Positions 4,788 to 44,003 of a DNA stretch of 64,000 nucleotides are shown in pieces. The stretch is from positions 1 to 64,000 of the IMG/VR virus record IMGVR_UViG_3300017917_001739; one strand, 5' to 3'. Source of the stretch: a virus. How positions within the stretch are numbered: position 1 is the first letter of the stretch; each line of letters begins with the position of its first letter. The notes beneath the pieces were generated by a model. The model was not told the origin of the DNA. It saw nothing but the letters and a program-made list of their open reading frames with translations, and ran no database searches. The translations under genes were made by a program, and so were the position numbers.

Positions 4788-6083
4788 ATGGAAACTAAAA
4801 TATTAAATGCTAAAACTAAATTAGATTGCGAACACCTATTAGGAAAATTCGTAGATGAATCTAACTACGACACATTAGTAACATATGATGCAGATTTCTA
4901 TGCACCTACAATTGATGGTATCAATTCAGAAAAAAATATAATCTTTAAATTTCGTAAAAATTATTTCACTAAAGAACAACAATCAACTGCATATGCTGGA
5001 TTAAGAGAAGCAGCAATTGAAACTCAAAATCGTGGTATGGCAGCAGGTCCAAAATCTTCTAAATTAGGAAGTCGTGACTGGGTAACTGAATATCAAGAAG
5101 AAATGCTTGATAAATTGATGAACTTTAAATCAAATTTAGATGGAACACACCCAATTGATGAAGTAAACAAAAAATATAAATCTAAAAATAAAGCTGAAGT
5201 TTCTCCAAGAGGAAACGTTTGGTTGATTAATAAAGTTACTGACGAAGGATTTGTATTTGAAAACTGGCTTGATGAAGTGCGTTCTATGTCACAAGAAGAT
5301 GCTATTAAAGAAGCAACTCGTGTAAAAACTAAATTAACATCTACAACCACTTATGCTAATGCTGTATTTTCAGGTATTGCTGGTTATTTCGATAGATATC
5401 CACGTATTCCTTATGGTCGTGCAACTGCATTTACAGAAAAAAATCCTGAGAAATTTGCTATGGGATTTCCTTTTCTACAAGCATTATCGTCTGGATTTGA
5501 AAAGTTATTACCAGAAAGATTTGCAAAACAAAAGGAAGCATGTAATAAATTAGATAGTAAATTCGTAATTCCAGGAACTGTATTTACTACAATGACTGTA
5601 AATAAAACATTTAGAACTGCTGCTCATAGAGATGCTGGCGATTTAAATGAAGGATTTAGTAATTTAACAGTTGTATCGAATAATGGTAAATATACAGGTG
5701 GTTATCTAGTATTTCCAGAATATCGTGTTGCTGTTGATGTTCGTCCAGGAGATTTATTATTAGTGAATAATCACGAGGGTATTCATGGAAATACTGAAAT
5801 GAAAGCTGAAGCTGATTGTGAACGTATTTCATTCGTGTGTTATTTTAGAGAAAAAATGCTAGAACTTGGCTCATGGAACTATGAGATGACAAGAAAAAAT
5901 TATGTCGAAGATCGTAGAAAGAATAAAAACCATCCATTACAAAGAGAATTATGGAATGGTGTGAGCGAAGGAATGTGGGATCAAGAAGAGTGGTACAATT
6001 ATCTTGAGTCTAGATTGGGTGAAGAAATATTAATTAAATATCATCCTGAGTCACGTAAATCGTCGTTAGAATCATTCTTTTAA
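4788..6083 (+). CDS. TET/JBP-type 2OG-Fe(II) dioxygenase, probable DNA base hydroxylase
   Basis: Members of the TET/JBP family hydroxylate 5-methylcytosine (TET) or thymine (JBP) in DNA, using 2-oxoglutarate and Fe(II). This 431-residue protein has the full catalytic set: iron ligands H280 and D282 (AAHRDAGD), then GGYLVFPEYRVAVDVRPGD, iron ligand H333 (EGIHGN) and R346, placed to bind 2-oxoglutarate. The FPEY-V-RPGD block is a hallmark of TET/JBP proteins rather than other 2OG enzymes. A helical N-terminal part of about 200 residues and a C-terminal tail of 80 residues flank the core. The glycosyltransferase gene begins 4 nt downstream, so hydroxylation followed by glycosylation is the natural model. 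No C5-methyltransferase is visible in the window. Confidence 0.82.
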   Translation: METKILNAKTKLDCEHLLGKFVDESNYDTLVTYDADFYAPTIDGINSEKNIIFKFRKNYFTKEQQSTAYAGLREAAIETQNRGMAAGPKSSKLGSRDWVTEYQEEMLDKLMNFKSNLDGTHPIDEVNKKYKSKNKAEVSPRGNVWLINKVTDEGFVFENWLDEVRSMSQEDAIKEATRVKTKLTSTTTYANAVFSGIAGYFDRYPRIPYGRATAFTEKNPEKFAMGFPFLQALSSGFEKLLPERFAKQKEACNKLDSKFVIPGTVFTTMTVNKTFRTAAHRDAGDLNEGFSNLTVVSNNGKYTGGYLVFPEYRVAVDVRPGDLLLVNNHEGIHGNTEMKAEADCERISFVCYFREKMLELGSWNYEMTRKNYVEDRRKNKNHPLQRELWNGVSEGMWDQEEWYNYLESRLGEEILIKYHPESRKSSLESFF

Positions 6084-14440: not shown

Positions 14441-15073
14441 ATGAAAAGGACAATATACCTTTTATTATGTTTTGTTATAGGTTTAGCGAGTATGAGTTTG
14501 GTAGCAAATGCCCAAACACAAAATAATACGTCAGGAAGTAATACTGCCATTACTGGTGGGTACACTTCAAATTCAACATCCACATATCAATCTGGATCGA
14601 GCTCAAATACTACAACCACTAATTCGACAACAACGAATGCATATAGTGGTGATACAAGAGTAACTGCATCTGCAACTGCTCCGAGTATGTCAGCTTATTC
14701 ACAAGATTTGTGTTTGGTTGGTTATTCTGCTGGTGTGTCTACATTTGGTGTAGGTGTGACTGGTGGAAGTTATAAAGCAGATGAAAATTGCGAACGTATC
14801 AAATTATCTAAAGTGTTAAATGATCTAGGAATGAAAGTGGCAGCAGTTTCTATACTATGTCAAGATCCTAGAGTATTTTTTGCAATGGAACAATCTGGAA
14901 CTCCTTGTCCATTTGAAGGAAAAATTGGTGCAGAAGCAAGTGCTCAATGGTTAAAATATGATAAATTAAGACCAGACTATAATCAGTATGTTGATAAACT
15001 TACTGTAATTGAGAATGCACGTAAAGAAGAAGAACTTAAAAAGTTAAATGGAGGAACTACTGAAAAAAAGTAG
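14441..15073 (+). CDS. Secreted Ser/Thr-rich protein; probable programmed frameshift at its end
   Basis: The zero-frame product has 210 residues: a signal peptide (MKRTIYLLLCFVIGLASMSL, cleavage after ANA), a low-complexity Thr/Ser/Asn region (about 26-75), and a conserved-looking domain with four Cys. AAGAAGGAAAC precedes the ATG. The 3' end carries an A-AAA-AAG heptamer (15064-15070) immediately before the TAG, with GGAGG 9 nt upstream, the arrangement used by E. coli dnaX. A -1 shift adds 42 residues with a transmembrane helix. The protein would then exist as a secreted form and a tail-anchored form. Function unknown. Confidence 0.7.
   Translation: MKRTIYLLLCFVIGLASMSLVANAQTQNNTSGSNTAITGGYTSNSTSTYQSGSSSNTTTTNSTTTNAYSGDTRVTASATAPSMSAYSQDLCLVGYSAGVSTFGVGVTGGSYKADENCERIKLSKVLNDLGMKVAAVSILCQDPRVFFAMEQSGTPCPFEGKIGAEASAQWLKYDKLRPDYNQYVDKLTVIENARKEEELKKLNGGTTEKK
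15050..15070 (+). promoter_or_regulatory. Probable -1 programmed ribosomal frameshift signal
   Basis: GGAGG (15050-15054), a 9-nt spacer, the slippery heptamer A-AAA-AAG in the zero frame (15064-15070), then the TAG stop (15071-15073). An internal Shine-Dalgarno about 10 nt upstream of this same heptamer stimulates -1 shifting in dnaX. I see no strong downstream hairpin, only a weak 4-bp possibility. Confidence 0.6.
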
Positions 15074-15198
15074 TTACTAACATCGCTGATAATAATGTAA
15101 GTACGAGTGATAAGAATGAAAATTCAATCACAACCCAAGGAGAATCTTCATGGCGATACTTATTCTTATTATTATTATTATTTGGAGTGGTTATATAA
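15070..15198 (+). other. Minus-one-frame extension encoding a transmembrane tail
   Basis: In the -1 frame reading stays open for 42 codons to TAA at 15196-15198. The segment is a polar Asn/Ser linker followed by SSWRYLFLLLLLFGVVI, a convincing membrane helix. There is no ATG, GTG or TTG at the beginning of this frame, so it cannot easily be an independent gene. This is the main support for frameshifting. Confidence 0.55.
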
Positions 15199-15220: not shown

Positions 15221-15463
15221 ATGAATAAAAAACGTAAACTTCCAATCTTATCAAGGTTAAAAAAGAAAGCACCACGAATACCAGAGTTCACTTGTCCAGA
15301 TATAGACCATATTATGCAATACGTGGAAGATCTTGACGTGCTTAAACGTGGACAATTAACTTATTTTAAACGACGCATGGAAAAACTAAGAAGTTCTAAT
15401 GATAGTTTAAGGGAAAGTGGTGCATATTGGTACGAAGAAATAAAAAAAATATTAGAAAAATAA
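15221..15463 (+). CDS. Small basic hypothetical protein (80 aa)
   Basis: An 80-residue protein with a very basic N-terminus (MNKKRKLPILSRLKKKAPR) and helical remainder (DIDHIMQYVEDLDVLKRG). No signal peptide or known motif. It lies between two genes for secreted proteins, with a 1-nt gap to the next. Confidence 0.55.
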   Translation: MNKKRKLPILSRLKKKAPRIPEFTCPDIDHIMQYVEDLDVLKRGQLTYFKRRMEKLRSSNDSLRESGAYWYEEIKKILEK

Positions 15464-15464
15464 T

Positions 15465-17189
15465 ATGAATAAAAAATGTTGGTTTGATAATTTACCGAAA
15501 CAATTAAGAATATTAATATTCTTAGTGATGCTAGTATCATGCTTTTTTATTGGTACTAAATTCGCAAAAGCTCAAACAACAACCACTGTGACAGTAAATG
15601 GTAATACAACCACAACTGTGACAACTACTACAACACCAATTACATCAACTACAGTACCAAATGTTCCAAATTATGGCGATCAAACAATTAATAGCACTAA
15701 CTCTGTAAATACTACAACGACAATTGTAGAATTAAACAAAAATTCAGGAAACTTATTAACTGGTAATTTTTGTACAGGTGGATGGACTGGCACACAGATT
15801 ACAAATAGTCCTTCTGGAAGCACAAGTGATTTAGGATGTAATTATATGACTGGTAAAGGTTCCACATATGCAGAAAAAACCATTACACTTACTGATAAAG
15901 GAATATCTAAAGTAGAACAAAATTTAGGATTTACACAATCAGCAAATGCGCAAACTGGGTTTTATTGGTATCATCCACAATCATTAATTATGTCTCATTC
16001 AGTAACTAATTTAGATACTGGAGAAACAATTACACAAAATCGTTATCTTTCAAAAAATTATGGATCAGATTCACAATATATGACAGTGAAGACATTAGAT
16101 AATATTACAATAGGATCTAATTCTTCAAATTTTGGTTATACAAGCAAGTTAAGATTTGATTTTGCAGATAGTGGTTCTGGTACTTGGAGAGGTGCAGATG
16201 TTATGAATCCAAATTTAAGTATTACATATACAAAATATACAGAAACAACAACTACTGCTATCACAAATACTTCAATAGTTATTTCTTGCGAATCGTTAGG
16301 AACTTGTTTTACAGCACCAACTATTCAAGAACCAAAAATCACATTATCAAGTTCTGGGTCAACGTCTTCAATTATTAATGAAGAGCAAATTAATCCAACA
16401 CCAAAATTAACAACAACTTCAACTTCAACAGCACCAGCACCAGAATTGAGTACATCAATTACAGGTATAACTTCACCAGTATCATCAATGGCACCAAAAG
16501 AAAGTTCAATTAAAACACAAGAAATGGCAATGGCAACACCTACGTCAGAACCAACTTCAACACCATCAACTTTGACAATGAATAAAACAAGTGACGATAA
16601 ACCTACAACAAAGGAATCATCAAATGTCAATTCAAGTTCAGAAACAACTACAAAAACGTCAAGCACGACAACTGAAAAAACAGAAACTACTACAGCTAAG
16701 TCTACTTCAAGCGAAAATACGAAAACAGAAGGATCGTCGTCAAAGACGTCATCATCTGAAAATGTATCGAATGAAAAGGGAAGCACTACTGCGTCAGGGA
16801 CTGTTAGTACCAGCAATGCTACTTCAAAAGATGAAAAAATCAGCGTAAGTGTAAAAGCTGCAGTTGAAAAAGTTGAAAAAGAATTAAAAAGTATAGGCGA
16901 TAAGACTAAAGCGATACAAGAAATTAAAATTGATGGAATAAAAGCAGGTGCTCCAAACTTAGCAGCATATGAGAATCGTGCTTTTTACGAACCTAAATAT
17001 TATAATGGAGTACCAAATCCAGATTTTTATTTGCAAGCTGATATAGCACAAAAGCCAGTTTATGCAAATGTGACGTTATTAGCATATACAAATAATGATC
17101 CGATCGGAAAACAACAAGCAGCAATGCAACAAATTCAAGATGAGATGAATGATATAATTATTCAACTTGAAGAACTAAAAAGGAAATAA
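15465..17189 (+). CDS. Large secreted Thr/Ser-rich protein
   Basis: The 574-residue protein has a positively charged start and a hydrophobic signal segment (LRILIFLVMLVSCFFIGTKF) followed by a likely cleavage site before QTTTT. The Thr-rich stretch (about 38-90) precedes a domain of about 170 residues with aromatic beta-strand pattern. A long Thr/Ser/Glu/Lys low-complexity linker (about 280-460) and a helical C-terminus follow. It resembles its neighbour at 14441 in its leader and Thr-rich region. Surface-exposed or virion-attached location is inferred. No enzymatic motif seen. Confidence 0.65.
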   Translation: MNKKCWFDNLPKQLRILIFLVMLVSCFFIGTKFAKAQTTTTVTVNGNTTTTVTTTTTPITSTTVPNVPNYGDQTINSTNSVNTTTTIVELNKNSGNLLTGNFCTGGWTGTQITNSPSGSTSDLGCNYMTGKGSTYAEKTITLTDKGISKVEQNLGFTQSANAQTGFYWYHPQSLIMSHSVTNLDTGETITQNRYLSKNYGSDSQYMTVKTLDNITIGSNSSNFGYTSKLRFDFADSGSGTWRGADVMNPNLSITYTKYTETTTTAITNTSIVISCESLGTCFTAPTIQEPKITLSSSGSTSSIINEEQINPTPKLTTTSTSTAPAPELSTSITGITSPVSSMAPKESSIKTQEMAMATPTSEPTSTPSTLTMNKTSDDKPTTKESSNVNSSSETTTKTSSTTTEKTETTTAKSTSSENTKTEGSSSKTSSSENVSNEKGSTTASGTVSTSNATSKDEKISVSVKAAVEKVEKELKSIGDKTKAIQEIKIDGIKAGAPNLAAYENRAFYEPKYYNGVPNPDFYLQADIAQKPVYANVTLLAYTNNDPIGKQQAAMQQIQDEMNDIIIQLEELKRK

Positions 17190-17192
17190 ACA

Positions 17193-17429
17193 ATGATAGA
17201 TAAAATAAAAAATAATCTAAAAGAAATAATCGCTACAGTAGCAATTATTGGTACAATAGGTGGTGGTTTTATCAAGTATGGTGAAATCATGAGTAAAATT
17301 GATAGCATTGATCCAGCAAAAGCAGGTGAAATGAAAAAAGATTTTGCTATTCTACAAAAAGAAGTAGATTTACTTAAAGTACAAATTAAAGAATTAAGAC
17401 AATTAAATTCAAACCCATTAGCAAGATAA
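17193..17429 (+). CDS. Small membrane-anchored coiled-coil protein (78 aa)
   Basis: Residues about 12-29 (IIATVAIIGTIGGGFIKY) form a membrane helix, and the C-terminal 45 residues are a predicted coiled coil (KKDFAILQKEVDLLKVQIKE). It starts 3 nt after the Thr-rich protein gene. Unknown role. Confidence 0.6.
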   Translation: MIDKIKNNLKEIIATVAIIGTIGGGFIKYGEIMSKIDSIDPAKAGEMKKDFAILQKEVDLLKVQIKELRQLNSNPLAR

Positions 17430-43927: not shown

Positions 43928-44003
43928 TCACTCGTAGTTCAATGGATAGAATGCCAGACTACGAATCTGGAGGTTGCAAGTTCGAGTCTTGCCGAGTGAG
44001 CCA
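43928..44003 (+). tRNA. tRNA-Arg (anticodon ACG) with encoded CCA
   Basis: The 76-nt sequence folds as a full cloverleaf. The acceptor stem is TCACTCG/CGAGTGA, with discriminator G and CCA encoded at 44001-44003. The D stem is GTTC/GAAT, and the anticodon stem CCAGA/TCTGG holds loop CTACGAA, anticodon ACG. The T stem is GCAAG/CTTGC with loop TTCGAGT. A34 would be read as inosine after TadA editing, decoding CGT/CGC/CGA. It stands directly upstream of the oxygenase island. Confidence 0.93.

Follow-up and report, generated by a model that had tools for sequence, protein, structure and literature searches.

A conserved slip signal is predicted to add a hydrophobic tail to a putatively secreted protein of viruses chiefly infecting SAR11 bacteria

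A putatively secreted protein of ocean and freshwater viruses, chiefly those that infect SAR11 bacteria, carries a conserved slip signal that should make some copies with an extra hydrophobic, probably membrane-binding, tail. We regard it as highly likely that this is a programmed −1 frameshift at A_AAA_AAG, helped by a Shine-Dalgarno-like (SD) GGAGG, giving two proteins from one mRNA: a free, exported 210-aa form, and a form that continues past the stop in the −1 frame for 42 residues and most likely is held by its tail on the inner membrane from the periplasmic side. The site, its phase, the SD-like element, the tail, their conservation and the linkage of site to tail are read from sequence, whereas the frameshifting itself and its efficiency, export, membrane attachment and a role in remodelling or opening the host envelope are inferred. 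Relatives keep the two-product coding capacity although the slip signal has been swapped several times in evolution, and it is this output, not one particular slip mechanism, that selection appears to keep.

The recoding site and its gene

The window (the whole 64,000-nt stretch of DNA analysed) lies in a 68,128-bp IMG/VR virus record with T4-like genes (UvsX-like recombinase, DnaB-like helicase, primase and ribonucleotide reductase). The initial annotation had proposed a dnaX-like −1 frameshift adding a membrane tail to a secreted protein, and its description of the site is correct to the base. The zero frame ends GAA AAA AAG TAG. The −1 frame is closed by a TGA just upstream of the heptamer, its only start codon thereafter is a GTG three codons before the stop, and it encodes the tail VVTNIADNNVSTSDKNENSITTQGESSWRYLFLLLLLFGVVI. 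Because the next ORF follows the tail, the tail fills what would otherwise be a gap of about 150 nt, where the neighbouring gaps are 2–23 nt. Chance is a poor explanation: ORFs of 100 aa or more in the window hold four in-frame A_AAA_AAG in 19,319 codons, and only this one has GGAG/GAGG at the right distance. The dnaX analogy nevertheless lacks its third element here, as the sequence 3′ of the window heptamer has no significant stem-loop (z about 0).

Table 1 Features of the frameshift gene, its neighbours and other loci in the window
Feature	Coordinates	Strand	Description
Zero-frame gene	14441..15073	+	210-aa exported protein of an uncharacterised phage family (PHROG 20531)
Putative Sec signal peptide	14441..14512	+	Residues 1–24 (ANA^QT), judged by eye on the translation; N-terminal helix 3–16 in the AlphaFold2 model; relatives also start with hydrophobic segments
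Conserved core	14714..15046	+	Residues 92–202, with invariant Cys117, Cys140 and Cys156 (Cys91 just before it)
SD-like GGAGG	15050..15054	+	9 nt 5′ of the heptamer; proposed 5′ stimulator
Slippery heptamer A_AAA_AAG	15064..15070	+	In zero-frame phase
Zero-frame stop TAG	15071..15073	+	Directly after the heptamer
−1-frame tail	15070..15198	+	42 codons (15070–15195) plus TAA (15196–15198); polar linker and hydrophobic end
Hydrophobic stretch of the tail	15157..15195	+	C-terminal YLFLLLLLFGVVI, 13 residues
80-aa ORF	15221..15463	+	Between the frameshift gene and the large secreted protein; basic; also in L001 and L005
Cassette gene 2	15465..17189	+	574-aa predicted secreted protein, Thr-rich
Cassette gene 3	17193..17429	+	78-aa protein with N-terminal hydrophobic helix and probable coiled coil; weak match to an Rz-like spanin PHROG (E=0.02)
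431-aa protein	4788–6083		Strong match to PHROG 24024 and weak match to queuine tRNA-ribosyltransferase; possibly a deazaguanine base-modification enzyme
tRNA-Arg (anticodon acg)	43928–44003		Only tRNA gene in the window

The putative signal peptide (MKRTIYLLLCFVIGLASMSLVANA^QT) is followed by a Ser/Thr/Asn-rich stretch and then by the core. The best profile match is PHROG 20531 (E=3.2e-13), which has no assigned function, and Pfam, PHROG and PDB profile searches gave no functional family. An AlphaFold2 model of the 210-aa protein (mean pLDDT 62; core about 83) has a low-confidence segment at 20–89 and a small folded core from about 92 to 202. The model had no PDB fold match (best E 1.7) and, at E<=0.001, matched only uncharacterised or unnamed viral proteins in BFVD. 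A scan of bacterial and archaeal genomes hit only metagenome- or single-cell-derived contigs (L411–L437; L numbers denote loci of our surveys), assigned to taxa as unlike as Woesearchaeota, Actinomycetota and Flavobacteriaceae; these are most likely phage contigs binned with the wrong organism and so carry no host information.

Slip sites and tails among relatives

To ask whether the arrangement is conserved, we surveyed 411 loci (404 complete genes, 303 distinct). Of the distinct genes, 65 have a short hydrophobic −1-frame tail, 61 have a hydrophobic C terminus in frame and 177 have neither, although two of these 177 (L222 and L234) were later found by eye to have the −1 tail. A second survey of 85 further distinct genes added 32 more −1 tails, 29 of them in the distant HTVC115P-like clade, giving about 99 distinct relatives. 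Tails usually end in (L/F)FG(V/I/L) plus a few hydrophobic residues (window LLLFGVVI, L011 PLLFGLLLL, L043 ILFFGIIF, L064 LIFFGMII, Mosig MLFFGVAF, L348 MFFGVPLFF, L469 MFFGIPPFLIF); the L061 group ends ILFVFFLI instead, and the window's nearest relatives FVGVLI.

The closest relatives (L001–L004, 85–89% identical) keep GGAGG, heptamer and −1 tail. The L011 clade (71–73%), the cultured Pelagibacter phage Mosig (72%) and L079 (65% over its best segment) keep the heptamer, an SD-like site and a hydrophobic −1 tail, with the SD-like bases read as different amino acids (GGA-GGA in the window, CAG-GAG in L011, AAG-GAG in Mosig and CTG-GAG in L079). Loss with the zero frame kept does occur, but in the close relative L005 tail and heptamer are lost together (GAG AAA AAA TAG, no hydrophobic tail), as linked function predicts; many other clades also lack the tail, which is thus not essential everywhere.

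Slip sites fall into two classes. Class I is A_AAA_AAG: all 25 distinct cases of the first survey are in the correct phase and all have GGAG/GAGG 5′ at the right place. Class II is A9/A10 (once A8), where the base after the run falls on codon position 1, 2 and 3 in 20, 11 and 8 cases, and only 2 of 39 have an SD-like site (Fisher 9e-16; on representatives 7/7 versus 1/22, p 5e-6). The classes were split on run length, so phase and SD are independent observations. This matches the two known dnaX solutions, ribosomal shifting at A_AAA_AAG in Escherichia coli and transcriptional slippage at nine As in Thermus (PMC3711429), and class II sites look like RNA-polymerase slippage sites. There are exceptions: L222 has A_AAA_AAC with GGAG, L444 and L450 have A_AAA_AAG without an SD, and L219 keeps the −1 tail but has GGGGAAAAAG as its slip site, within a GGGGA/TCCCC inverted repeat, by an unclear mechanism. 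In L100 and L211 the A9 run sits in the loop of a GAGTC-A9-GACTC hairpin (z −4.4 for L100) with AAGGAG upstream, a possible structure-aided slippage site.

Mosig EXVC030M (MT647606), sequenced by Illumina at 348x (PMC7892664), has AAGGAG, A_AAA_AAG, 6 nt and then a stem-loop, CCGGTG-GAGAA-CACCGG (−11.2 kcal/mol, z −3.2). Its −1 frame, KKVHTGGEHRREINKLWITIPLMLFFGVAF, is not in the GenBank annotation, which shows only the 257-aa zero frame. L171 also has the heptamer, SD and tail and keeps the same stem-loop (z −2.2; 6–7 nt 3′ of the heptamer in the two), whereas its relatives L172 and L174 have A9 instead and keep the tail; a significant stem-loop was sought and not found in the window and L011 clades. 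One group is reversed: L048, L051, L052 and L053 have a tail like that of the L011 clade (EINQWYEAKDNSS versus EIDAWYEAKENSW), but in the zero frame, downstream of A10T, where a −1 slip gives KKN-stop at once. Two products could still be made, with short and long swapped.

Site and tail go together. An A9+ run or an SD plus A_AAA_AAG lies near the 3′ end in 63 of 65 −1-tail genes, against 8 of 238 other genes, of which four are the reversed group and one (L234) is a tail gene missed by the filter (Fisher 2e-53; on 150 representatives 28/30 versus 4/120, p 8e-24). These p-values ignore shared ancestry; on the core tree the class I label needs 4 changes and class II 8, so the association is replicated, but not 65 times. 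A9+ runs occur at 0.028 per kb elsewhere in the loci and 4.77 per kb at the site, about 170 times denser, which is partly by definition of the class. On the coding strand of all fetched loci such runs are very rare (20 in 716 kb) despite the AT-rich sequence, suggesting avoidance of slippage-prone runs elsewhere.

Pairwise omega in the −1 frame after the zero-frame stop is 0.41 in the window clade, 0.21 in the L061 clade, 0.32 in the L043 clade, 0.32 in the Mosig clade, 0.38 in the WILLPL clade, 0.75 in the L011 clade, 0.90 in the LFGVLL clade and 0.40 in the HTVC115P-like clade (linker 0.27). Counts are small for single clades, purifying selection is not clear in the L011 and LFGVLL clades, and overlap with a neighbouring ORF weakens omega in some clades. 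In clades without an overlapping gene, variable states fall on −1 codon positions as [24, 9, 32] (chi-square p=0.002).

ALTERNATIVES

Because the site is a homopolymer, where indel errors concentrate, and because in-frame tails do exist in some relatives, a sequencing or assembly error hiding a single, tailed product has to be considered, as does phase variation, given that A9/A10 runs are classical contingency loci and that the L048 group has its tail in frame at an A10 run. We consider both very unlikely. Among 498 pairs of loci more than 90% identical upstream, 2 differ in run length, and these are one comparison because L098 and L186 are the same contig; no close pair switches between shifted and in-frame tail. 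Mosig has A7 at 348x coverage, and A7 runs are short for phase variation. An error would not explain the SD-like site in 25/25 class I genes, the phase restriction or the conserved zero-frame stops, and the SD-like site has no role in a phase-variation switch. It is similarly improbable that the −1 frame is an untranslated by-product of a neighbouring signal peptide or small ORF. Overlaps are real in the L011, Mosig and HTVC115P-like clades, but in the window, L043, L061, L064 and L079 clades the tail ends before the next gene starts; in the Mosig clade pairwise differences are [13, 14, 52] by −1 codon position, the pattern of a coding −1 frame, and the HTVC115P-like linker has the low omega given above. 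In the Mosig-like clades (L172 +10..+124, L175 +13..+133 and L219 +13..+139 after the zero-frame stop) a separate small ORF with a hydrophobic helix and a conserved NPY(N/D)F motif overlaps the tail in another frame, starting at an ATGA overlap instead in the podovirus-like relatives. We rejected the small '(F)ADDINPYNF' ORF as the tail moved to its own gene, because a like ORF coexists with the −1 tail in L178, L172 and others.

A further reading accepts frameshifting but makes the C terminus a protease or PDZ-type tag or an assembly surface, with slippage setting the turnover or oligomeric state of the exported protein. In most clades, the window's included, the uncharged C-terminal stretch is 11–16 residues, short for a membrane span, is always at the extreme C terminus and has no basic residue after it, and periplasmic tail-specific proteases may read nonpolar C termini. 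Against this, uniform high hydrophobicity is kept while the individual residues change, and the HTVC115P-like clade has longer hydrophobic ends (19–26 residues) that could span a membrane. We judge this alternative unlikely, though not excluded, and membrane attachment the likely role. The 'membrane helix' of the initial annotation is plausible rather than shown for the window tail, and its 'secreted' and 'envelope' labels rest on the signal peptide judged by eye. Outer-membrane beta-signal and PEP-CTERM readings of the tail were rejected by eye, as hydrophobicity does not alternate and no basic cluster follows.

Known recoding systems and gene context

E. coli dnaX (tau/gamma) uses the same heptamer, with an SD-like element about 10 nt upstream and two products sharing an N terminus (PMC3711429), but in an unrelated protein, and there the shift shortens the product, where here it would lengthen it and add a hydrophobic tail; the L048 group has the shortening polarity. 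The nine-A precedent of Thermus thermophilus dnaX resembles the class II relatives, although in a different gene, whereas the window has only A7. In the Ebola virus glycoprotein, slippage at a run of As decides between a soluble secreted and a membrane-anchored form (PMC5009743), but in an unrelated protein of an RNA virus of animals, by the viral RNA polymerase. Phage tail-assembly chaperone (G/GT) and capsid-protein frameshifts likewise give a C-terminal extension in a tailed phage; those are virion-assembly genes, from which recoding in tailed phages is best known, whereas the neighbours here are a cytidylyltransferase-like gene and secreted/membrane proteins. The 210-aa protein has no cysteine at its predicted cleavage site and does not carry the lipoprotein signal of an outer-membrane spanin. 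We found no report of this family's frameshift in the open-access literature. It would be a conserved case, in phages of SAR11 (among the most abundant marine bacteria), where recoding decides whether an exported protein carries a hydrophobic tail, and the repeated exchange of ribosomal for apparent transcriptional slippage within one gene family makes it a natural experiment on what selection sees: the products, not the mechanism. It also adds an unannotated coding tail to about a hundred distinct viral sequences and one cultured phage.

The gene heads a conserved, uncharacterised three-gene cassette of secreted/membrane proteins. Of 237 loci with enough sequence, 170 have a large ORF right after the gene, and 160 of these then have a small ORF with an N-terminal hydrophobic helix; cassette gene 3 of the window matches 156 of those 160. 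In five phage records (HTVC023P, HTVC033P, ctXG6705, CRP-207 and CRP-810) the family lies within a few genes of a lysozyme or peptidase M15. We tentatively propose that the cassette acts in the host envelope late in infection, perhaps in lysis, and that frameshifting sets the ratio of free to membrane-held protein. It is possible, though somewhat less likely than not, that selection has preserved this ratio while the recoding mechanism turned over repeatedly (SD-stimulated ribosomal slippage, polymerase slippage at A9/A10, reversed polarity), the output serving as a topological dosage switch in a new three-protein envelope, perhaps lysis, system of SAR11 phages. The conserved pair downstream comprises a large Thr-rich predicted secreted protein, with a weak CBM_4_9 match in AP013540, and a small helix/coiled-coil protein with an IGGGFxKYGE-like motif.
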